Of a DNA stretch of 64,000 bases, positions 13,184 to 22,334 are shown piece by piece. The DNA comes from Ideonella alba. GTDB lineage: Bacteria; Pseudomonadota; Gammaproteobacteria; Burkholderiales; Burkholderiaceae_C. The notes under the pieces were generated by a model that saw only the letters and a program-made list of their open reading frames with translations, searched no databases and was not told the origin of the DNA. Numbering within the stretch: the first letter of the stretch is position 1; each line of letters begins with the position of its first letter. The stretch spans positions 62,001 to 126,000 of the forward strand of contig NZ_JAGQDF010000009.1 in assembly GCF_018069875.1 (NCBI RefSeq), given 5' to 3'. Made by a program: the position numbers and the translations under genes.

Positions 13184-13729
13184 TCACTCCTCCAGTCGCA
13201 GGATCTCGAGCTGCTCGGGCACGGTTTCGAACGTGCCGGCGCCGGCGGGCATCTGCATCAGCGGCTTGCCATCGGCCGACAGCACCCACACGCAGGGGTA
13301 GACCAGCAGGCGCGCGCGCTGGTCGCCGATGGCGCGCTGGAAGTCGGCGTACAGGCCCTGGTGGGCGTCGGTGCGCAGCTGCAGGCGCTTGGCGTCCACC
13401 TCGAGTCTGGCGGTCATCGTGGCCACCATCCAGCGCTCGTTGAAGTGCGGCACCAGGGCCTTGGCGTTGGCGGCCAGGAAGGCCTCGTAGCGGTGGCAGT
13501 AGTGGCAGTCGGTGGCGGTCAGGACCAGGTAGATGTCCTTCTTCAGCTGGCGCGCGCGGGCCTGGGCGGGGCGCAGGTCGAACAGCCAGGGGCCGCCGTC
13601 GCCCTGGGGCTTGTCGGGCTCGATGACCATCGGCGCATAGGCCGCCGGGATGGCGGCGCGGGCGGGGGCGGTCCAGGGCAGGGCGCCCAGGCAGGCGGCC
13701 TGCAGCCAGTGGCGGCGCCGCGGGTTCAT
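13184..13729 (-). CDS. Exported thioredoxin-like protein with CxxC, end of the xox operon
   Basis: The 181-residue protein starts with an RRR signal peptide (MNPRRRHWLQAACLGALPW). The thioredoxin-like active site is TDCHYCHRYE (Cys75, Cys78), followed by a conserved-looking FNERWMVATM segment. It resembles thioredoxin-fold SoxW-like proteins. It is the last gene of the operon and its start overlaps the stop of the SoxYZ-like gene (ATGA). The expected role is reduction or disulfide exchange on the carrier cysteine of its SoxYZ-like neighbours or on cytochrome partners. That is inferred from the analogous SoxW-SoxYZ relation in sulfur oxidisers. Confidence 0.82.
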   Translation of the reverse strand: MNPRRRHWLQAACLGALPWTAPARAAIPAAYAPMVIEPDKPQGDGGPWLFDLRPAQARARQLKKDIYLVLTATDCHYCHRYEAFLAANAKALVPHFNERWMVATMTARLEVDAKRLQLRTDAHQGLYADFQRAIGDQRARLLVYPCVWVLSADGKPLMQMPAGAGTFETVPEQLEILRLEE

Positions 13730-14568
13730 GCAATGGCTCCGGTGGCCAGATCCAGTGCGCCGCGAAAGCGCTGCTCCTTGCTGTCCTCGACCTCGGCTTC
13801 CAGGCGGCCGCCGCCGTCGGCGCGCGGCTGGAACAGGAAGCGCCAGCTGGGGTTCTCGCTGATGGAGAAGTCGCAGTCCAGGTCGAACAGCAATCGGCCG
13901 TCGTAGCGCGCGCGGATGCTGCGCACGAAGTGCGGCGGGATGTACATCACCGTGACCTGGTTGAGCTCGAAACCGGTGTCGTTGGGATGGATCACCGTGA
14001 CCTCGCCCGGCGTGGCCTGGCCCGCGGGTTTCAGGCCCTCGGGCAGCTTGAAGCGGGTCTGGCCGATCAGCTGCGGCGCATCGCGGTTGGGCGGTGCGCT
14101 GCAGCCGCCCGACACCTTCACGTAGCGCGAGGACAGGTGCAGCGAGCCGTCGTCCAGCTCGGCGATGACGCGCATGTGGCCGTACTCGTCCACGCGCAGC
14201 CGGGTCTCGAACTCGGCGCGGACGATGGCCGGGCCGATGTTGAGCGTGGCGGCCACCGGCGACGGGTTCTTGTCGACCAGCAGCGTGTAGCGGCGCACGG
14301 CGCGACCGGGCGCTTGGTCGCCCAGACGGGGCACGATCTTCACCGGCACCGAGGCACCGTAGGCCGCGCGCAACGGCACCACCAGCTGCACCGCGCTGTC
14401 GGCCCCGGTGGCGATCGGGCGGTCGCCGAAGAGCTTGGCGCGCAGGCGGTCCCACTCGGGCGAGCCGCCGTCGTGGTCGATCACGGCAGGCAGGCCGCCC
14501 GGCGCGGCGGTGGCCGCCAGCGGCAGGCCGGCCAGGGCCAGCAGGGCGTGTCGTCGGGCGATGCTCAT
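13726..14568 (-). CDS. Quinoprotein dehydrogenase-associated SoxYZ-like carrier protein (copy 1)
   Basis: The 280-residue exported protein fuses a SoxY-like N-terminal half and a SoxZ-like C-terminal half. The SoxY-like part ends in KVSGGCSAPP, where Cys156 is the candidate swinging-arm carrier residue (canonical SoxY ends GGCGG). The SoxZ-like part shows VIHPNDTGFELN and IPPHFVRSIRARYDG, matching the SoxZ pattern HPMxTG...IP. It is known as a family always found near PQQ dehydrogenases (TIGR04557-type). A second paralogue lies at 17107-17970 in the same operon. Its start was set by the signal peptide MSIARRHALLALAGLPLA. Confidence 0.88.
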   Translation of the reverse strand: MSIARRHALLALAGLPLAATAAPGGLPAVIDHDGGSPEWDRLRAKLFGDRPIATGADSAVQLVVPLRAAYGASVPVKIVPRLGDQAPGRAVRRYTLLVDKNPSPVAATLNIGPAIVRAEFETRLRVDEYGHMRVIAELDDGSLHLSSRYVKVSGGCSAPPNRDAPQLIGQTRFKLPEGLKPAGQATPGEVTVIHPNDTGFELNQVTVMYIPPHFVRSIRARYDGRLLFDLDCDFSISENPSWRFLFQPRADGGGRLEAEVEDSKEQRFRGALDLATGAIA

Positions 14569-14581
14569 CAGGGCTCCTCGG

Positions 14582-15571
14582 TCAGCGCAGCAGCAGCGCG
14601 CGCTCCTGGCGCAGGAAGACGATCGACGCATTGCGCCGGTGGATGGTGTCGGCCTGGTCCCAGTCGGCGAACTCGGGCAGCGTGGCCGCCTCGGCCACGT
14701 CCGACAGCGGCGTGCCCTGTGCCAACAGCACGGCGATGCGCTCGTCGAGCTGGTCCAGGTAGCGGCGGGTCTGGGCCACCAGGTCCGGCGCGGCCAGCGG
14801 GCCGTGGCCGGGCACGATGCGGGCCAGCGGCAGCGCCTGCAGCGCGGCCAGCGCGGCGCGCCAGCCCTCGGGGCGGGCGTCCTGCACGTCGGGGATGGTG
14901 TGTGCGTCCATCAGGCCGCCCGCGAACAGCGTGCCACTGGACTCGTCCAGCACCGCGAGGTCGCCGGGACCGCTGCTGTGGGCCTCCGGGCCGTGCACCA
15001 GCAGGCGCAGGCGCCGACCGATCAGCCCGGCCAGTTCGGCCTCGGCGGCGGGCAGGTCGGCCAGCAGGCGGTCCGGTCGGGCCACGCGGCTGCCGGCCAT
15101 TTCATCCTCGCCCAGCACGCGCTTGAGGGTCTTGAGGCAGTTGTCGCAGCGCGCCGCCATCAGACGGGCGGCGGCCGGGTGCATCCACACCGGCACGCCG
15201 TGGTGCTGGAAACTGGTGGCGCCAAAGACGAACTCCTGGCGCACATGGGTCAGCAGCAGCGCGCGCACCGGCAGCGCCGTGATGCGGCGCAGGCTGGCCA
15301 GCAGGGCCTCGCCGTGGCGCGCTGACACGCCGCTGTCGATGACCACCACGCCCGTGGGCCCGACGATGAAGCCGGCATTGCCGATACGGCCCCGGTTGGC
15401 CGGGTCGACCTCGCCGCCGGTCCCGGGCACCATGAACACGCCAGGGGCCACCTCCAGGGCCTGACCAGGTGTGGTCACCGGCGCAGCCGCGCAGGCGGCC
15501 AGCGGCGGCAGGCAGGACCAGGCCGCCCACTGCAGCAGGCGGCGGCGCTGGCGGCGAACCGGGTGGGGCAT
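14582..15571 (-). CDS. Quinoprotein relay system metallo-beta-lactamase-fold protein with degenerate zinc motif
   Basis: The 329-residue exported protein has an MBL fold with VVVIDSGVSARHG (strand and metal-adjacent Asp), LLLTHVRQEFVFG where the HxHxDH motif should be, and IVPGHGPL towards the C-terminus. Only the first His (His109) of the motif is kept; the others read Arg111, Glu113 and Phe114. A CDNC pair (Cys142, Cys145) is present. It corresponds to the SoxH-related 'quinoprotein relay system zinc metallohydrolase' group (TIGR04558/04559-type). In the operon it lies between the SRPBCC gene and SoxYZ-like copy 1. Whether it still binds zinc is doubtful. Confidence 0.82.
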   Translation of the reverse strand: MPHPVRRQRRRLLQWAAWSCLPPLAACAAAPVTTPGQALEVAPGVFMVPGTGGEVDPANRGRIGNAGFIVGPTGVVVIDSGVSARHGEALLASLRRITALPVRALLLTHVRQEFVFGATSFQHHGVPVWMHPAAARLMAARCDNCLKTLKRVLGEDEMAGSRVARPDRLLADLPAAEAELAGLIGRRLRLLVHGPEAHSSGPGDLAVLDESSGTLFAGGLMDAHTIPDVQDARPEGWRAALAALQALPLARIVPGHGPLAAPDLVAQTRRYLDQLDERIAVLLAQGTPLSDVAEAATLPEFADWDQADTIHRRNASIVFLRQERALLLR

Positions 15572-15581
15572 GCGACAGGGC

Positions 15582-16124
15582 CTACTTGCCCTCGACCAGG
15601 GACTTCAGGTTGGCCAGGCCGCTCTGGTAGACGCCGGTGACGGCGCGCACCGCGGCTTCGTCGTTCTGGTCCGGGGGCGGGTTGTTGTTGGGATAGCCGC
15701 GGTAGAAGGCGCCACGCCACTCCACGGTGGCCTTGCCCCCGTCTTCGGTGACGCGCAAAGTGGACGTGTAGTTGGTCACCGGCAGCGCACCGCCGTCCTT
15801 GGCGCGGTAGGTGTACTTCATGCCGGCATCGTCCCAGGCTTCCAGGGTCTCGGTCAGCGCGCCGCCCCCCTTGAGCGTGAGCTGGCGGACCGAGCCGACC
15901 TCGTTGCCCTTGTCGGCCGGGCTGGATGCGACCGCCGGGTGCCAGGCCTGCAGCGCGGCGAAGTCCTTGATCCGGGCCCAGACGGTGGCCGCGGGGGCGT
16001 TGATGGTGATGGTCTCGGTCACCTTCTGGCGCGTCGGGCCGTGCGCGGTGGCGGCGCCGGACACGGCGGCCAGGGCCAGGCCGAGCAGCCACAGGCGGCG
16101 TGTCGGCGGGAGGGAGCGGGTCAT
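15582..16124 (-). CDS. Exported SRPBCC (polyketide cyclase/START-like) protein
   Basis: The 180-residue protein has a signal peptide ([27 protein letters not shown]) followed by a SRPBCC domain. The domain shows VTETITINAPAATVWARIKDFAALQAWHPAV, the typical strand-helix-helix opening, and VEWRGAFYRGYP later. Exported SRPBCC proteins recur in xox/PQQ gene sets. A ligand-binding or chaperone role for a hydrophobic cofactor is possible but unproven. Its start overlaps the stop of the beta-propeller gene by one base (TGATG). Confidence 0.8.
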   Translation of the reverse strand: MTRSLPPTRRLWLLGLALAAVSGAATAHGPTRQKVTETITINAPAATVWARIKDFAALQAWHPAVASSPADKGNEVGSVRQLTLKGGGALTETLEAWDDAGMKYTYRAKDGGALPVTNYTSTLRVTEDGGKATVEWRGAFYRGYPNNNPPPDQNDEAAVRAVTGVYQSGLANLKSLVEGK

Positions 16125-17110
16125 CAGGGGGTCTCCTTGCGGGCGAGGGAAAGATCAGGTGGGGTGGCGATGAAGGCGCCAAAGCCGCGCGGGTTGCGGC
16201 CCAGCGGCACGCGGCTGATCAGCTGGCCGCTCGCGGCATCGAGCAGGCTGAGGTCGTCGTCCATCCAGTTGACGACCAGCACCTGCGCGCCGTGGGCGGC
16301 AATGCCTTCGGGGTAGCCAAAGCCGCGCAGCGTGGCCAGCGGGGTCAGGCGGTCGGCGTCGAAGACGCTGACGGTGTCGTCGTGCTGGTTGGTCACGTAC
16401 AGGCGCCGGCCACTGTCGGCCAGCGCCGCGCCGTAGGGTGCCTTGCCCACCTTCAGCGTGGCCACCACCTGGCGGCTGCGGGTGTCGATGACGCTGACGT
16501 CGTCGCTCAGCACGTTCAGCGCGTACAGACGCTGGCGCGGCGTATCCAGCAGCAGCGCAAACGGGTGCTGGCCCACCGGCACCCGGGCGATCACCTCGGC
16601 GCGGGCCACGTCGACCAGGGCCACGCGGTTGTCGTCGCGCTCGGCCACCCAGGCCTGGGCGCCGTCGGGCAGGGCCGCCACGCCGGCCGGGGCGCGGCCC
16701 AGCGGCACGTCGGCGATCAGGCGGCGCGCGGGCAGGTCGAAGACCTTCAGGCGCTGGCGGTACCAGTCGGCGGCAAAGACGCGGCCGCCGTCGGCGCTGG
16801 CATCCACGCCCACCACGCCCTGGCCCACCGTCAGGCGGGCGAGTTCGCGCGGGGGCTGCATGGCCAGCACGGTGAGGGCGTCGTCGTCGGCGTTGCTGAC
16901 CACCACCTCACCGCGTGCCGGCACCGCCACCACGCCGGCCGGCGAGCGGCCCACCGGCACCGTGGCCACCACCCGGCGGGTGGCGAGGTCGACCACCGAC
17001 ACATCATGGCTGCCCTGGTTGGTGATCCAGGCCAGCGGCGCCGCGGTGGCTGCCGCGGCAAGGGCCAGGCCGGCAGCGGCCAGCGCCCGGGCGGCCAGCA
17101 GCGGTGTCAT
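16124..17110 (-). CDS. PQQ-dependent catabolism-associated YVTN beta-propeller protein
   Basis: The 328-residue exported protein consists of about seven repeats of the YVTN type (AWITNQGSHDVSVVDLATRRVVATVPVG, LYVTNQHDDTVSVFDAD and similar), each with the V-I/V-D-T pattern. It matches the beta-propeller family linked to PQQ-dependent catabolism (TIGR03866-type). The fold resembles quinoprotein propellers but has no PQQ-binding vicinal cysteines or catalytic Asp, so a binding or docking role is likely. Start and stop overlap both neighbours (ATGA at 17107-17110). Confidence 0.86.
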   Translation of the reverse strand: MTPLLAARALAAAGLALAAAATAAPLAWITNQGSHDVSVVDLATRRVVATVPVGRSPAGVVAVPARGEVVVSNADDDALTVLAMQPPRELARLTVGQGVVGVDASADGGRVFAADWYRQRLKVFDLPARRLIADVPLGRAPAGVAALPDGAQAWVAERDDNRVALVDVARAEVIARVPVGQHPFALLLDTPRQRLYALNVLSDDVSVIDTRSRQVVATLKVGKAPYGAALADSGRRLYVTNQHDDTVSVFDADRLTPLATLRGFGYPEGIAAHGAQVLVVNWMDDDLSLLDAASGQLISRVPLGRNPRGFGAFIATPPDLSLARKETP

Positions 17111-17970
17111 GCGCCGCCCGTCAGCGTGGACAGCGCGGCCTCGGCGGTGAATCGGCGGGCGCGCGTGTCGGTGACCTCGGCGCGCAGCGGCGCGTCACCC
17201 TGCGGCACGAAGCGCAGGCGCAGGCTGGGGTTCTCGCTGAGGGCGAAGTCCAGGTCGGCGTTCAGCAGCAGCCGATCGCCCTGCCACAGGCGCAGTGAGC
17301 GGATGTACTCGGCCGGCGTGAACTGGCGCGTGTACTGGTCCATCGCCAGGCCCGAGTGGTTGGGGTGCAGCACCTGCCACTGCAGCGTCCAGGGCTGGCC
17401 GGCGGGCGGGCGCGGGCCCTCGGCACGGAACAGCATGCGGCCCAGCGAGGCGCGCTGCGCGGCCTCGTCGCCGCCCGGCGGTGCCGAGCAGCCGCCACTG
17501 GCCTTGACGTAGCGCAGCGCCATCAGGCGCCGGCCATCGGCGCGCTCGGCCACGGCACGCACGAAGCTGTATTCGTCCACCCGCACGCGGGTTTCCAGGT
17601 CGGGCAGGGCGCCGCCCTCGGGCAGCTCGAAGATGGCGGCCAGCGGCGACGGGTTCTGGTCGATGATCAGCGACAGGCGTCGGATGGCGGCAGCGCCCGC
17701 CGAGGGCACCGTGCGCCGGGTGGCCAGCGGCACGAAGGCCGGATCACCGGCGCGCTTGGGCGCTGACAGGCTGAGTTCCTCGGGCGAGGCGAGCGCCGGC
17801 GTGCGGTCGTCGAAGTACTGCGCGCGCAGCTTGCGCCAGATCGGCGAATCGTCGGGGTTGCTGTCCTCGGCCGGCGGCGCGGCCCAGGCGGCCCAGGGCA
17901 GCGCGACCAGGCCCGACCAGCCCAGCACGCTGCGGCGTCGCGGGTGAAGGGGAGGCGGGCGGCTGGACAT
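17107..17970 (-). CDS. Quinoprotein dehydrogenase-associated SoxYZ-like carrier protein (copy 2)
   Basis: The 287-residue protein is paralogous to the product of 13726-14568. It has the same order: an RRR signal peptide, IIDQNPSPLAAIF (compare LVDKNPSPVAATL), YVKASGGCSAPP with carrier Cys161, then the SoxZ-like LHPNHSGLAMDQYTR...YIRSLRLW. Overall identity by eye is moderate, with the cysteine motif and the NPSP segment best kept. Two divergent SoxYZ-like genes in one operon suggest separate clients or a hetero-oligomer. Confidence 0.87.
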   Translation of the reverse strand: MSSRPPPLHPRRRSVLGWSGLVALPWAAWAAPPAEDSNPDDSPIWRKLRAQYFDDRTPALASPEELSLSAPKRAGDPAFVPLATRRTVPSAGAAAIRRLSLIIDQNPSPLAAIFELPEGGALPDLETRVRVDEYSFVRAVAERADGRRLMALRYVKASGGCSAPPGGDEAAQRASLGRMLFRAEGPRPPAGQPWTLQWQVLHPNHSGLAMDQYTRQFTPAEYIRSLRLWQGDRLLLNADLDFALSENPSLRLRFVPQGDAPLRAEVTDTRARRFTAEAALSTLTGGA

Positions 17971-17978
17971 GGCGGCGT

Positions 17979-18341
17979 TCAGCGGATCACGAAGCAGGCC
18001 TTCTTGACCTCGGTCTGCAGCTTGCGGTAGCGGCGCACGCCGGTCTGCACGCCTTCGTTCTCGCGCAGGTAGGCGCCACGCTCACCGCCGATGGTGGTGG
18101 CGTTGGCCTCGGTGGACAGGGTCTCGTACTCGTCGAAGCTGATCTGATCGGCCAGCTTGTCCAGCGCGCAGGCGCACTTGTTGACCATCTCGAAGTGCGG
18201 GCCGGGGTGGTCGCGCATGCATTCGTGCACATAGAGCACGCGGGCCACCGTGGGGAAATCGTTGCCCGCGTGGGCGGGCAGTGCACCCAGCAGTGCCGCA
18301 CCGGCGGCGGCGGTCGTGGTCAGCAGACGAAGCAGCGTCAT
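17979..18341 (-). CDS. Small exported four-cysteine protein of the xox operon
   Basis: I do not recognise a named family. The 120-residue protein has a signal peptide (MTLLRLLTTTAAAGAALLGALPAHAG) and a mature part of ~95 residues, predicted mostly helical. The cysteines are at 41, 56, 58 and 116 (HECMRDH, NKCACALD, KKACFVIR). The spacing would permit two disulfides or metal binding. No CxxCH heme motif is present. It overlaps the upstream 254-residue gene by four bases and precedes SoxYZ-like copy 2 by eight bases, so it belongs functionally to the methanol dehydrogenase operon. Confidence 0.75.
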   Translation of the reverse strand: MTLLRLLTTTAAAGAALLGALPAHAGNDFPTVARVLYVHECMRDHPGPHFEMVNKCACALDKLADQISFDEYETLSTEANATTIGGERGAYLRENEGVQTGVRRYRKLQTEVKKACFVIR

Positions 18342-19102
18342 TGGACGGTCCTGACGGCGATGGGCGTGAACGGCTGCAGGGCCGGCACCGAGGCGCCTGC
18401 CAGGGTGAGCTGGTCGTCGGTCAGCGGCGTGGAGTCGGGCTTGGGCCCGGGCGTCAGCGTCTGCAGCGACAGCACCTGGCCGGGCACCGACTCGGACAGC
18501 ACGAAGCGGTAGCTGCGCTGCACATACAGCGGGAAGCGGGCCTCGTTGGGATCGTTGACGTAGGGGGTGAGGATGATCTCGCGCGCCGCCACCGGCTTGC
18601 CCTGGTAGGTGGCCTGCACGTCGCGCAGCGTGCCCGCCTCGTAGAGGGCCATGCGGATGCGCTTGCGGAAGTAGTTGGCCGACCCCTTGGTGATCTTGTT
18701 CATCTGGCGGATGTCGCGCTCCAGGAAGTACAGCAGCACCGGGTTGCCCACCGGGCTCTGTACCTCGGGCAGCTGCAGCTTGCGCGCACCGCTGAGGAAT
18801 TCACCCTTGGCCGAGCAGCAGCTGCCGTCCTGGCGCTTGGCCAGCATCACCTTGGCGTCGTCCTCGAAGGGCTCATCGCCCTCGCCCTTGTGCACGTAGC
18901 GGTAGTTCAGCGTGGTGCCGGCCTTCAGGCCCTTGAGCTGCTCGGACATCAGCAGCAGGCGCTCGGAGGGCGAATAGTCCTTCTTGCCTTCGGCCGGCGC
19001 GGGGCCGGACGCATCGGGGGCCGCCGGCACCTGGGCCTGGGCGGTGGGCAGTGCCAGCAGACTGGCCAGGGCCAGTGTGGCGAGCGTGTCACGGAGGGGC
19101 AT
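18338..19102 (-). CDS. Exported protein of unknown function of the xox operon
   Basis: The 254-residue protein has a signal peptide cleaved near AQA-QVPAA and a Pro/Ala-rich linker. The domain that follows is beta-rich (LKAGTTLNYRYVHKGEG, DDAKVMLAKRQDGSCC, NPVLLYFLERDIRQM). A vicinal Cys-Cys sits in DGSCCSAKGEF. The size and strand pattern resemble lipoprotein-carrier or outer-membrane-lipoprotein-sorting folds, but I cannot assign it. It sits 17 bases after xoxJ and overlaps the four-cysteine gene, within the translationally linked operon. Confidence 0.75.
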   Translation of the reverse strand: MPLRDTLATLALASLLALPTAQAQVPAAPDASGPAPAEGKKDYSPSERLLLMSEQLKGLKAGTTLNYRYVHKGEGDEPFEDDAKVMLAKRQDGSCCSAKGEFLSGARKLQLPEVQSPVGNPVLLYFLERDIRQMNKITKGSANYFRKRIRMALYEAGTLRDVQATYQGKPVAAREIILTPYVNDPNEARFPLYVQRSYRFVLSESVPGQVLSLQTLTPGPKPDSTPLTDDQLTLAGASVPALQPFTPIAVRTVQ

Positions 19103-19119
19103 CGGGGGGGAATCAGGGC

Positions 19120-19977
19120 TCAGCGGGAAGGGGCGGGCGCGTCCTCGAGCAGCGGCACGTTGTACGACTGCAGGATGGCGCGGATGTCCGGGCGACGGGC
19201 GTCGATCAGGGCCTCGATCTGGTCCTTCCAGGCCTTCTCGCCGTAGCGCACGCCCATCGCCATCTGGTAATCGAACCGCACACCGGGCTCGGAGGCCATC
19301 GGGATCACCACCAGTTGTGGCTGCTTGACCCGCTGGGCGAAGAAGCCCGCCAGCGGACCCCAGACGATGGCCGCGTCGATGCGGCCCTGGGCCAGCTCGT
19401 CCTCGATGATCTGGCCAGGGTAGCGGGCCGGGTCGGCGTCAAGCATCTTGTAGGGCACGCCCTGGTCGGTCAGGTCGTGGCGCGCCAGCCAGTCGGAGGC
19501 GGGCGAGCGGTCGAACACGCCGATGCGCAGCTTGCCCAGGCGGTCCTTGCCCAGCGCCAGGAAGTCGGCGGTGGACTTCACGCCATCCAGGCCCTTGCCC
19601 AGCGGGATCACCAGCGCATAGGTCGAGCGGTAGTAGGGCTTGGTCACCGAGACCTGGTCGAAACCGACCGGCACGCCCATCATCAGGTCGCAGCGGTAGT
19701 CCTCGCCCGGCAGCTTGAAGCGCAGCGTGTTGCGCACGAAGGCCATGCGCTGCGGGAACTCGTAGTACTGCACCGGCAGGCCCAGGGCCTTGCCGAAGAG
19801 CTCGGCCAGCTTGTTCTCGATGCCCTCGCCCGCGGTGTTGGAGAACGGCAGGTTGTTCGGGTCCTGGCAGACCTTCAGCGCCTTGCGCGGCGCGTCGTCC
19901 TGGGCCGATGCGGTGGGCGGCAGCACCGCGGCCAGCGCGGTCACCACCAGCGCGGCCACGCTGCGCAGACAGCTCAT
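19120..19977 (-). CDS. xoxJ: XoxJ/MxaJ: quinoprotein dehydrogenase-associated periplasmic binding protein
   Basis: The 285-residue exported protein has a family 3 solute-binding fold: LKVCQDPNNLPFSNTAGEGIENKLAELFG is the signature start of MxaJ/XoxJ. The motifs YRCDLMMGVPVGFDQVSVTKPYYRSTY and GRIDAAIVWGPLAGFFA follow. Known XoxJ structures have a large open cleft, and a role in XoxF activation or partner docking has been proposed. It follows xoxG with a 4-base overlap (19974-19977), the standard xoxF-G-J order. Confidence 0.93.
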   Translation of the reverse strand: MSCLRSVAALVVTALAAVLPPTASAQDDAPRKALKVCQDPNNLPFSNTAGEGIENKLAELFGKALGLPVQYYEFPQRMAFVRNTLRFKLPGEDYRCDLMMGVPVGFDQVSVTKPYYRSTYALVIPLGKGLDGVKSTADFLALGKDRLGKLRIGVFDRSPASDWLARHDLTDQGVPYKMLDADPARYPGQIIEDELAQGRIDAAIVWGPLAGFFAQRVKQPQLVVIPMASEPGVRFDYQMAMGVRYGEKAWKDQIEALIDARRPDIRAILQSYNVPLLEDAPAPSR

Positions 19978-20372
19978 TTGATCTCTTCCACCTTGGCGCG
20001 CGTGATGGCGCCGTCGGAGCGGCCCTTCAGGTAGGCGTAGAGGTGGTCGATGTTCTCCATCACCGTCGGGTTGGTGCCGAAGCTCTGCATGCCCTTGTCG
20101 AGGCGCCCGTTGGTGACGGTCTTGACGAATTCTTCCTTGCTCAGGGTCTTCAGGCTGTTGACCAGCGACGGGCCGACCATGCCTTCCTGGTTGGCGCCAT
20201 GGCAGCGGTCGCAGGCCGCGGCACGCCAGGTGCGGAAGCCCTTCATGGTGTTGGCGTCCACCTTGTAGCCTTCCTGCACGGTGTAGAGCGGCTTGTCCTG
20301 GGCTTGGGCACCGACGGCACCAAAGGCGAGGACGAGGGGCAGGGCCAGGGCGGCGAGTTGCTTCACTTGCAT
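19974..20372 (-). CDS. xoxG: Cytochrome c electron acceptor of XoxF
   Basis: The 132-residue monoheme cytochrome has a signal peptide (MQVKQLAALALPLVLAFGAVGAQA), a heme site CDRCH (Cys54, Cys57, His58) and a probable axial Met95 in KGMQSFGTN. It accepts electrons from PQQ in XoxF in the periplasm and passes them to the oxidase. The ATG at 20372 begins the signal peptide; the frame continues upstream but without a plausible leader. It lies 141 bases behind xoxF, separated by two hairpins. Confidence 0.92.
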   Translation of the reverse strand: MQVKQLAALALPLVLAFGAVGAQAQDKPLYTVQEGYKVDANTMKGFRTWRAAACDRCHGANQEGMVGPSLVNSLKTLSKEEFVKTVTNGRLDKGMQSFGTNPTVMENIDHLYAYLKGRSDGAITRAKVEEIK

Positions 20373-20437
20373 GGTCTCCAGGTCGTGGTGATGTCTTGCC
20401 GGATGGACGATCCGGCCAGGGAATGGGGAAAAGAGAA

Positions 20438-20472
20438 GGGGCCAGCGTTGTTCACCTGTCAACGCTGGCCCC
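20438..20472 (-). terminator. Strong hairpin between xoxF and xoxG (attenuator/terminator)
   Basis: A perfect 13-bp stem (GGGGCCAGCGTTG / CAACGCTGGCCCC) with a 9-base loop is followed on the minus strand by CTTCTCTTTTCC, an imperfect U-rich tract. It would end or attenuate transcripts after xoxF, leaving xoxF mRNA in excess over the accessory genes. Confidence 0.8.
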
Positions 20473-20481
20473 GGTCAGTCA

Positions 20482-20504
20482 GGCCAAGGGGTTTACCCTT
20501 GGCC
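20482..20504 (-). terminator. Second hairpin directly behind xoxF
   Basis: The stem GGCCAAGGG / CCCTTGGCC (9 bp, 5-base loop) starts 10 bases past the xoxF stop. No U-tract follows, so it is more likely a 3'-end stabilising structure working with the larger hairpin downstream. Confidence 0.65.
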
Positions 20505-20513
20505 GTTCGTCGC

Positions 20514-22334
20514 TCAGTTGGGCAGCGCGAAGACCGTCAGCGAGCCACCGAGTTCGGTGTACTGGCTCAGTTCACGGTAGCCACCGACAGCACCCAGGCC
20601 ATCCTGGTCCTTCTCGAGGCCCGCGGCCATGCCGATGCCGGCCCAGCCACCAATGCCCGAGAACACGCCGATGTACTGCTTGCCCTTGTGCTCATAGGAG
20701 AACACGTTGCCGATGATGCCCGACGGCGTCTTGAACTTGAAGAGCTCCTTGTTGATGTCCTTCTTGTCCACGCACTTCAGGTAACCCTCGAGCGTGCCGT
20801 AGCAGCTGATACCACCCGCGGTGTTGAGCGCGCCGGACCAGACCGAGAACTTCTCGGGCTTGGACTGCACGATCTTGCCGTTGCCGGCATCCCAGGTGAT
20901 GTAGTTGCCCATGCCGCCATGGCTGCCCGGCGCCGGGAACATCGACAGCGTCGCACCGACGTACGGCTGACCCGCGGTGTACTCGACCTTGAACGGCTCG
21001 TAGTCCATGCAGACGTGGTTCGTCGGCACGTAGAACAGGCCGGTCTCGGGGTCGAAGGCCGCAGGCTGCTGGTCCTTGGAACCCAGCGCCGCCGGGCAGA
21101 TGCCCTTGGTGTTGACGTCAGGACCGTTCTGGGCGGTGGAGTACTGCTTCACCACCTGCGGACGACCGGTCTTCATGTCGACGTGCGTGGCCCAGTTCAC
21201 CTTCGGGTCGTACTTCTCGGCAACCAGCAGGGCGCCGTTGGTGCGGTCCAGGGTGTAGGCGAAGCCGTTGCGGTCGAAGTGCACCAGCGCCTTGGTCTGC
21301 TTGCCCTTCACAGGGATGTCAGCCAGGATCATCTCGTTGATGCCGTCGAAGTCCCACTCGTCGAACGGGGTCATCTGGTAGACCCAGTTGACCTTGCCGG
21401 TGTCGACATCACGCGACCAGATGGACATCGACCACTTGTTGTCGCCCGGGCGCTGCGACGGGTTCCAGGTCGACGGGTTGCCAGTGCCGTAGAACACGGC
21501 GTTCAGGCCCTTGTCGTAGCTGTACCAGCCCCAGGTGGTGCCGCCGCCGATCTTCCACTGATCGCCTTGCCAGGTCTTCAGCGAGGAGTTCGGGCCGACC
21601 GGCTTGACGGCGCCGTCCATCCAGGTGGTGGTCTTGTTCGGGTCGATCAGCATCTCGGCGTCGGGGCCGGTGGAGTAGCCCTTCCAGACCTGCTTGCCGG
21701 AGTTGATGTCGTAGGCGGCCAGGTAGCCGCGCACGCCCCACTCACCGCCCGAGATGCCGGTGATGACCTTGTCCTTGAAGACGTGCGGGGCGTTGGTGTT
21801 GACCGCGCCCAGCTTCGGGTCGCCGTTCTTGACGTCCCAGACCTTCTTGCCGGTCTTGGCGTCCAGGGCCACCAGCATCGAGTCGGCCTGCTGCAGGAAG
21901 ACCTTGCCTTCGGCATAGGCCAGACCGCGGTTGACGGTGTCGCAGCACATCTGCGGGATCACCGCCGGGTCCTGCTTGGGCTCGTACTTCCACTTGATCT
22001 TCTGCGTGTCGAGATCGATCGCGAAGACCTTGTTGGGGAAGGGCGAGTGCAGGTACATCGTGCCGTCGACGACCAGGGGCGAACCTTCGTGGCCGCGCAG
22101 CACGCCGGTCGAGAAGGTCCAGGCGACCTGCATCTTGCCGACGTTGCCCTTGTTGATCTGGTTGAGCTTGCTGTAACGCTGGTTGTACATGTCACCAGCT
22201 TGCATCGCCCAGTTCTTGGGGTTGGCCGTGTTCTTCTCGACGTCGGCGTTGGCCATGGCGAGCGCCGGCAACGCCAGCAGCGCCAGGGCGACGCGTTGAC
22301 TGAGCTGCCGGGTCTTCATCCCGTGGAATCGCAT
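20514..22334 (-). CDS. xoxF: Lanthanide-dependent PQQ methanol dehydrogenase XoxF
   Basis: This 606-residue periplasmic quinoprotein has an eight-bladed propeller. It oxidises methanol (often on to formate) using PQQ. The PQQ-capping vicinal disulfide is Cys130-Cys131 in [11 protein letters not shown]. The metal ligands by family correspondence are Glu198 (GGEWG) and Asn286 (GTGNPS), with catalytic Asp328 and the extra Asp330 in DEWDFDG. The second Asp is the hallmark of lanthanide-binding XoxF; calcium-type MxaF has Ala there. The ATG at 22334 has GAGGAG seven bases upstream, so MRFHGMKT is preferred to the internal ATG at 22319. No mxaF, mxaI or pqq genes are in the window. Confidence 0.97.

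Follow-up and report, generated by a model that had tools for sequence, protein, structure and literature searches.

The subject of this work is an operon of 11 genes from Ideonella alba (GTDB lineage Pseudomonadota; Gammaproteobacteria; Burkholderiales; Burkholderiaceae_C), which is part of a 64,000 nucleotide stretch of contig NZ_JAGQDF010000009.1 (assembly GCF_018069875.1, positions 62,001 to 126,000), hereafter referred to as the window. The operon occupies positions 13,184 to 22,334 of the window and encodes, in this order, the pyrroloquinoline quinone (PQQ) dehydrogenase XoxF, XoxG, XoxJ, two proteins designated u254 and u120, a fused SoxYZ-like carrier (SYZ2), a beta-propeller protein, an SRPBCC protein, a protein with the metallo-beta-lactamase (MBL) fold, a second fused SoxYZ-like carrier (SYZ1) and a thioredoxin-like protein (Trx). 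The minus strand carries all 11 genes, with the order and ends reported in an initial annotation of this DNA, and the N-termini of all 11 products, as read from the sequence, show a hydrophobic stretch and a cleavage-like site, in agreement with the signal peptides claimed for them. The same annotation described most of the genes as joined by overlaps of 1–4 bases. This holds for five of the 10 junctions, where the overlaps are of 1 or 4 bases, but the other five consist of four gaps of 8–17 bases (13 bases between the MBL and SYZ1 genes, taking the ATG at 14568 as the SYZ1 start) and a spacing of 141 bases between xoxF and xoxG. The operon is flanked by an AMIN/amidase gene and by a gene on the opposite strand.

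For comparison, 80 fetched stretches were examined together with locus L005 and the window, and the genes in relatives were labeled by means of home-made hidden Markov models and a simple open reading frame caller. These loci were chosen for the fused carrier and form a part of all carrier matches, and the gene-order counts given below are thus ascertained on the carrier; less biased checks were provided by a family-wide search for XoxF and a search for u120.

The xoxF gene (20514..22334) encodes a dehydrogenase that, in accordance with its initial identification, is by sequence a lanthanide-type PQQ methanol dehydrogenase. It scored 717.8 bits with TIGR03075, its best solved relative is 6dam (“Lanthanide-dependent methanol dehydrogenase XoxF,” E 1.2e-285), and it contains the motif WDFDG, in which an extra Asp is found two residues past the catalytic Asp; this second Asp we take to be a mark of the lanthanide types. 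The protein also possesses a vicinal Cys pair, within the sequence QMCCDTVN. A CC was present in 50 of 51 dehydrogenase frames by a criterion that accepted any CC, the first one not being at the usual site in L064, L088, L120, and L127; the sole frame without it (L106) is truncated by a contig end. The two genes that follow specify a c-type cytochrome (xoxG, 19974..20372) and a periplasmic binding protein (xoxJ, 19120..19977), which exceeded the TIGR03871 cut-off in a profile search.

The genes u254 (18338..19102) and u120 (17979..18341) were listed as unknown in the initial annotation. Each of the 13 named Methylobacterium loci has a u120-u254-pqqE series on the strand opposite xoxFGJ. In Methylobacterium extorquens, xoxFGJ correspond to 1740–1742, orf6 to 1746, orf7 to 1747, and pqqE to 1748 (PMC7391723). 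Because they occupy the same place between xoxJ and pqqE, we equate u120 with orf6 and u254 with orf7, an equation made by position in the 13 Methylobacterium loci, M. extorquens itself not being among the loci fetched. The same source gives growth rates on methanol with lanthanum (La) of 0.16/h for the wild type, 0.03/h for an orf6 mutant, 0.08/h following a 9 h lag for an orf7 mutant, 0.04/h for a xoxF1 xoxF2 mutant and 0.11/h for a mutant of the MxaD homolog META1p1771, and describes the functions of orf6 and orf7 as unknown as of 2020 (PMC7391723). Loss of orf6 is about as severe as loss of XoxF1 and XoxF2 together, and the gene-order evidence places orf6 and orf7 in a broad family context; if the homology carries over, the two genes listed as unknown would have a genetic role. 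Four Cys residues are invariant across 16 aligned copies of u120. In u254 a vicinal Cys pair is present in all 16 copies from the window's family and in none of five other aligned copies; a u254 frame was caught by our filter in seven of the 13 Methylobacterium loci, with the Cys in none of the seven. No solved structural relative was found for u254 at E values up to 1, and no credible one for u120.

The SRPBCC protein (15582..16124) has matches of 51–54% on the xoxF contig in three of four Methylobacterium genomes, at 12–27 kb from xoxF; in the fourth (G143) the best match is on a different contig from xoxF. Further matches of 42–47% were observed about 8 kb from an mxaF-like gene in all four. 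These positions fit the MxaD homolog 1771 and MxaD itself, respectively, with the mxaF and mxaD genes being identified putatively. Directly past its likely signal cleavage site the protein reads AHGPTRQK, each residue of which is conserved in at least 90% of 12 copies; therefore, the mature protein may begin with His, for which a metal role is possible. With u120 and u254 as the counterparts of orf6 and orf7, and with an MxaD-like SRPBCC protein, the operon is, by analogy with M. extorquens, an XoxF-support operon, the putative core of which comprises XoxG, XoxJ, u120/orf6, u254/orf7, and the MxaD-like protein. The M. extorquens counterparts of this core (xoxFGJ, orf6, orf7, and META1p1771) are needed for full La-dependent growth on methanol (PMC7391723), but they are separate by locus number, whereas in the window they are united in one operon with a thiol module.

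This module includes the two carriers, SYZ2 (17107..17970; carrier Cys161) and SYZ1 (13726..14568), both of which score above the TIGR04557 cut-off (227.3 and 211.4 vs. 140). The carrier Cys, which follows GG at the junction of the Y and Z parts, is present in 92 of 92 aligned carriers. The distribution of the carrier, PQQ alcohol dehydrogenase and u120 was determined in 299 genomes, and that of XoxF in 200 genomes of the window's family. A fused carrier over the cut-off was detected in 39 of the 299 genomes, and all 39 also contained a PQQ alcohol dehydrogenase over its cut-off, as compared with none of 11 genomes whose over-cut-off carrier match consists of split SoxY and SoxZ. The carrier and the dehydrogenase are thus associated (Fisher 6e-26, kinship ignored), in keeping with the claim that a thiol carrier module is tied to XoxF. 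Strong matches to u120 numbered 31, all in genomes with a PQQ alcohol dehydrogenase, a 32nd match (E 1.2e-4) being in a genome without one; accessory genes of this kind are therefore not equally common in genomes lacking the dehydrogenase. The association is one-way, as 44 of the 83 genomes with a PQQ alcohol dehydrogenase have no fused carrier. XoxF at 80% identity or above was found in 27 of the 200 genomes and the carrier in 25 of these 27; the remaining two (G376 and G398) indicate that the carrier is an add-on and not a requirement. Likewise, five of the 31 u120 genomes lack the carrier and 26 have it. These carrier-less genomes, together with the variable presence of the propeller/SRPBCC and MBL-SYZ1-Trx blocks among loci, show that the accessory genes do not, as a set, strictly co-occur. 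Two genomes of the window's genus (G365 and G454) possess a fused carrier but no XoxF match at E 1e-150, and the XoxF operon is therefore patchy within the genus.

The carrier family is a named one, TIGR04557 being the “quinoprotein dehydrogenase-associated SoxYZ-like carrier” of NCBIfam, where the nearest MBL models bear the name “quinoprotein relay system zinc metallohydrolase.” In a 2026 review of the ped cluster, genes of this module are stated to accompany PQQ alcohol dehydrogenases with adjacent cysteines and, in M. extorquens, to lie close to xoxFGJ together with a thioredoxin-like gene; the roles suggested there are disulfide formation, cofactor stabilization and protection of PQQ from sulfur species (PMC12997753). 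The description of the operon as a not-yet-explained system thus holds for the function of the carrier but not for the family, which has been named and reviewed, nor for u120, u254 and the SRPBCC protein, which by position or similarity are counterparts of genes with XoxF phenotypes (PMC7391723). One possible role of the quinoprotein-associated SoxYZ/MBL module, an idea taken from the review, is that it shields PQQ or XoxF from sulfite, thiosulfate or persulfide (PMC12997753). The SoxYZ ancestry of the carrier, the presence of a true sox cluster in the same genome and the CXXCW rhodanese-like partner found in other lineages (TIGR03865, above its cut-off in all 13 genomes tested from other orders) are all consistent with such protection. 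However, no rhodanese or other sulfur-transferase domain is found among the operon products, and among the 22 genomes surveyed from the window's family the rhodanese-like partner never exceeded the cut-off, four of them giving weak sub-threshold matches; we consider this explanation unlikely.

The MBL protein (14582..15571) is one of the points in which the operon differs from the known relay systems, and its loss of most zinc ligands was passed over in the initial annotation. It retains only two or three of the seven, depending on the H196 column, which contains His in one alignment and Ser in another; H118, D120 (replaced by Glu), H121, and D221 are gone. Its scores fall below the cut-offs of both relay models (169.7 vs. 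300 for TIGR04558 and 195.2 vs. 280 for TIGR04559). TIGR04558 does not itself demand a full zinc site, since an MBL without one, from contig C32 of the same genome, passes at 403 bits. On account of the ligand loss, the reading of the window protein as an ordinary zinc hydrolase was rejected. This bears directly upon the initial proposal of action on the XoxF product, such as formaldehyde bound to the carrier Cys. Worked out as a one-carbon (C1) relay, this would have the bound formaldehyde oxidized to a thioester, which the MBL would hydrolyze to formate. The invariance of the carrier Cys, the MBL fold and the intact zinc site of all 30 relay MBLs obtained from other orders agree with such a relay, but the window protein and its class (class B, below) have lost most of the ligands, two of the 27 XoxF genomes do without the carrier, and of the four TIGR04559 matches above 100 bits in the I. 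alba genome (six weaker ones being outside this count) only the true SoxH, which keeps HYHADH, has the full site. A match from contig C33 (113 bits), which reads HYHAVR instead of HxHxDH, was set aside. The C1-thioester reading, for which the operon seems to be without the needed hydrolase, we regard as very unlikely, and action of a hydrolase on the XoxF product is not supported.

Within the window's order, 10 relay MBLs were zinc-intact and 41 were not, and the latter fall into two classes. Class B (25 rows) includes the window protein and has an invariant RCxxC (25/25; Cys142 and Cys145 in the window). Class C (16 rows) has the ligand pattern NHDYHGH and a Cys within LYRLCGDW or close variants, at a column occupied by V, L, or A in related intact MBLs. 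In a total of 82 MBLs, with the genome's own SoxH counted as intact, 41 have the zinc site and no such Cys, 41 have lost the site and possess the Cys, and none shows any other combination, by Cys criteria that were picked once the alignment had been seen. The best tree with the trait columns removed requires three changes from zinc to Cys and its starred branches force at least two, the placement being uncertain for three class B rows on long branches, which are the second copies of L053, L118, and L123. The swap was met only in the window's order, and no published description of it was found in a limited search of open-licence literature. The SYZ1 carriers form one clade (16 rows; support 98, starred) that is tied to the class B MBL and Trx and separate from SYZ2. 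The latter groups, across weak forks, near carriers whose partner is a zinc-intact MBL; the window's lineage may therefore have lost such an MBL beside SYZ2.

The predicted class B structure (mean predicted local distance difference test score, pLDDT, of 92.9) has the MBL fold, its relatives including 8d2z (Z 31.7, root mean square deviation 2.4, 273 aligned), 6uxu (Z 30.3), and CphA (Z 26.8), and places the CxxC inside helix 132–153; in the class C model (pLDDT 94.8) Cys157 is inside helix 136–161. The gained Cys, together with the remaining His or Glu residues, might bind another metal such as copper, which the MBL would deliver or sense. In favor of this explanation, His263 remains in 18 of 25 class B rows, a class that has acquired two Cys, and class C, with one Cys acquired, still has H118, D120, H196, and H263; His116, however, is retained in just 15 of the 25 class B rows, and a new metal site seems very unlikely. 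Loss of the ligands while the fold is conserved would also suit a non-catalytic class B protein that merely holds the carrier and Trx together, its Cys forming a structural disulfide. The invariant RCxxC in a long predicted helix suggests instead a reactive pair, which makes such a scaffold quite unlikely. A lipobox (LAAC) is present in the MBL, and several class B relatives have a similar Cys at that place in alignment A2, hence the protein is probably membrane anchored. We consider that the MBL in this lineage is probably a membrane-anchored CxxC protein and no longer a zinc hydrolase.

The Trx gene (13184..13729, CHYC motif) encodes a CxxC protein for which the match to Thioredoxin_7 is only sub-threshold. 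Its family has the CxxC in 16 of 16 copies, every one of them inside an MBL (class B)-SYZ1-Trx block. Judged from these sequence features, the combination of an MBL that has exchanged zinc ligands for Cys with a carrier and a Trx of its own is a new form of the quinoprotein relay system (TIGR04557/TIGR04558/TIGR04559; Pseudomonas putida ped, META1p1703–1705). The two share a fused carrier and a SoxH-like MBL beside a vicinal-Cys PQQ alcohol dehydrogenase, but the window operon has two carriers and its own Trx family, its MBL is below both cut-offs with most zinc ligands lost and a CxxC gained, and its genome has no CXXCW protein over the cut-off.

On the basis of these patterns, we tentatively favor thiol-disulfide work on XoxF or one of its helpers over C1 hydrolysis, at somewhat less than an even chance. 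In such a scheme the core helpers would make XoxF work with lanthanide, as genetics has demonstrated for the corresponding M. extorquens genes, and the attached thiol module would comprise the two carriers, with one invariant Cys each, the CxxC thioredoxin-like protein and the MBL-fold protein. Trx and the CxxC MBL would exchange reducing equivalents or a disulfide with the carrier Cys, which could then make or repair a disulfide in XoxF, where the vicinal Cys pair would be the site, or in a helper that has Cys, with u120 (four invariant Cys) and u254 (vicinal pair) as candidate targets. The direction of this transfer, its target and the redox activity of the MBL are what we infer from the observed gene content, Cys and ligand patterns, and co-occurrence. 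A fuller proposal would be that an MBL fold made the change from zinc hydrolase to thiol-disulfide protein on two or three occasions, working via a SoxYZ-like carrier on disulfides of the lanthanide methanol dehydrogenase or its helpers and replacing a CXXCW rhodanese-like protein, which is apparently missing from these genomes; this appears rather doubtful. The natural variant described here, in which the carrier Cys persists and the zinc site has been discarded, allows the hydrolase and thiol ideas to be told apart, a single strain being enough for the test.

Several observations weigh against the thiol-disulfide reading. Ten fetched loci of the window's family still have a zinc-intact MBL, and at least eight of the 22 family genomes surveyed for the CXXCW protein do so; the absence of that protein hence follows the family and not the loss of zinc, and is confounded with kinship. 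Two to three events, all in one order, are too few for the coupling of zinc loss to Cys gain to become significant when the tree is taken into account. The helix holding the CxxC borders the active site in CphA, and the CxxC need not face the old pocket. The ratio of nonsynonymous to synonymous substitution (dN/dS) is 0.148 in the class B pair L110/L113, a value in favor of the reading, but 0.40–0.83 in the other class B pairs (0.83 in L091/L092); two zinc-intact pairs gave 0.09 and 0.36. Nine of the 25 class B rows are without a Trx of this family, and a different thioredoxin-like frame (CPIC) is found near a zinc-intact MBL in L070 and L073, so that class B is not alone in having a thioredoxin partner. 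The P. putida genes had minimal effects in random-barcode transposon sequencing (RB-TnSeq) under conditions without lanthanide, according to the review (PMC12997753), and a search through the text of the M. extorquens screen paper gave no “sox,” “metallohydrolase,” “thioredoxin,” or META1p1703 (1704 and 1705 being outside the search).

The same 11 genes are found in the same order in the window, L104, L105, and L112, an arrangement that is more than chance. L050 has this order plus an unassigned stretch of about 1 kb following xoxJ, L093 has an additional MBL, and in L121 the propeller and SRPBCC genes are swapped. The MBL-SYZ1-Trx block stands alone in L108, L110, L113, L114, L117, L119, and L129. 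The propeller of the window (16124..17110) is of the YVTN type, with matches to YVTN/YNCE models; its score of 140.8 with TIGR03866, the model of a PQQ-associated propeller, falls short of the cut-off of 287.3. The carriers of L095, L098, L107, L109, and L111 form a separate subclade, with no MBL or dehydrogenase within the fetched stretches.

In the I. alba genome as a whole, PqqE and five PQQ alcohol dehydrogenases were detected over their cut-offs. A sox cluster with SoxCD, separate SoxY and SoxZ, SoxA, SoxX, and SoxB, identified by reading the sequence and including the SoxH with HYHADH, is located on the window's own contig (L006; C36:160000-179900), and its separate SoxY and SoxZ genes account for the fourth TIGR04557 match of the genome, which was excluded as a member of the system. 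The Sox system (SoxYZ, SoxH, SoxW) shares with the window operon the ancestry of the carrier and of the MBL and the single carrier Cys after GG, but in the operon SoxY and SoxZ are fused, and SoxAX, SoxB, and SoxCD are absent from it and found elsewhere in the genome. A second locus of a carrier, MBL, dehydrogenase, binding protein and cytochrome lies on contig C32 (L005, 9491–18520); its MBL, the one that passes TIGR04558, is of class C (NHDYHGH, Cys157), and the locus adjoins a TonB receptor gene and a VWA-domain gene.

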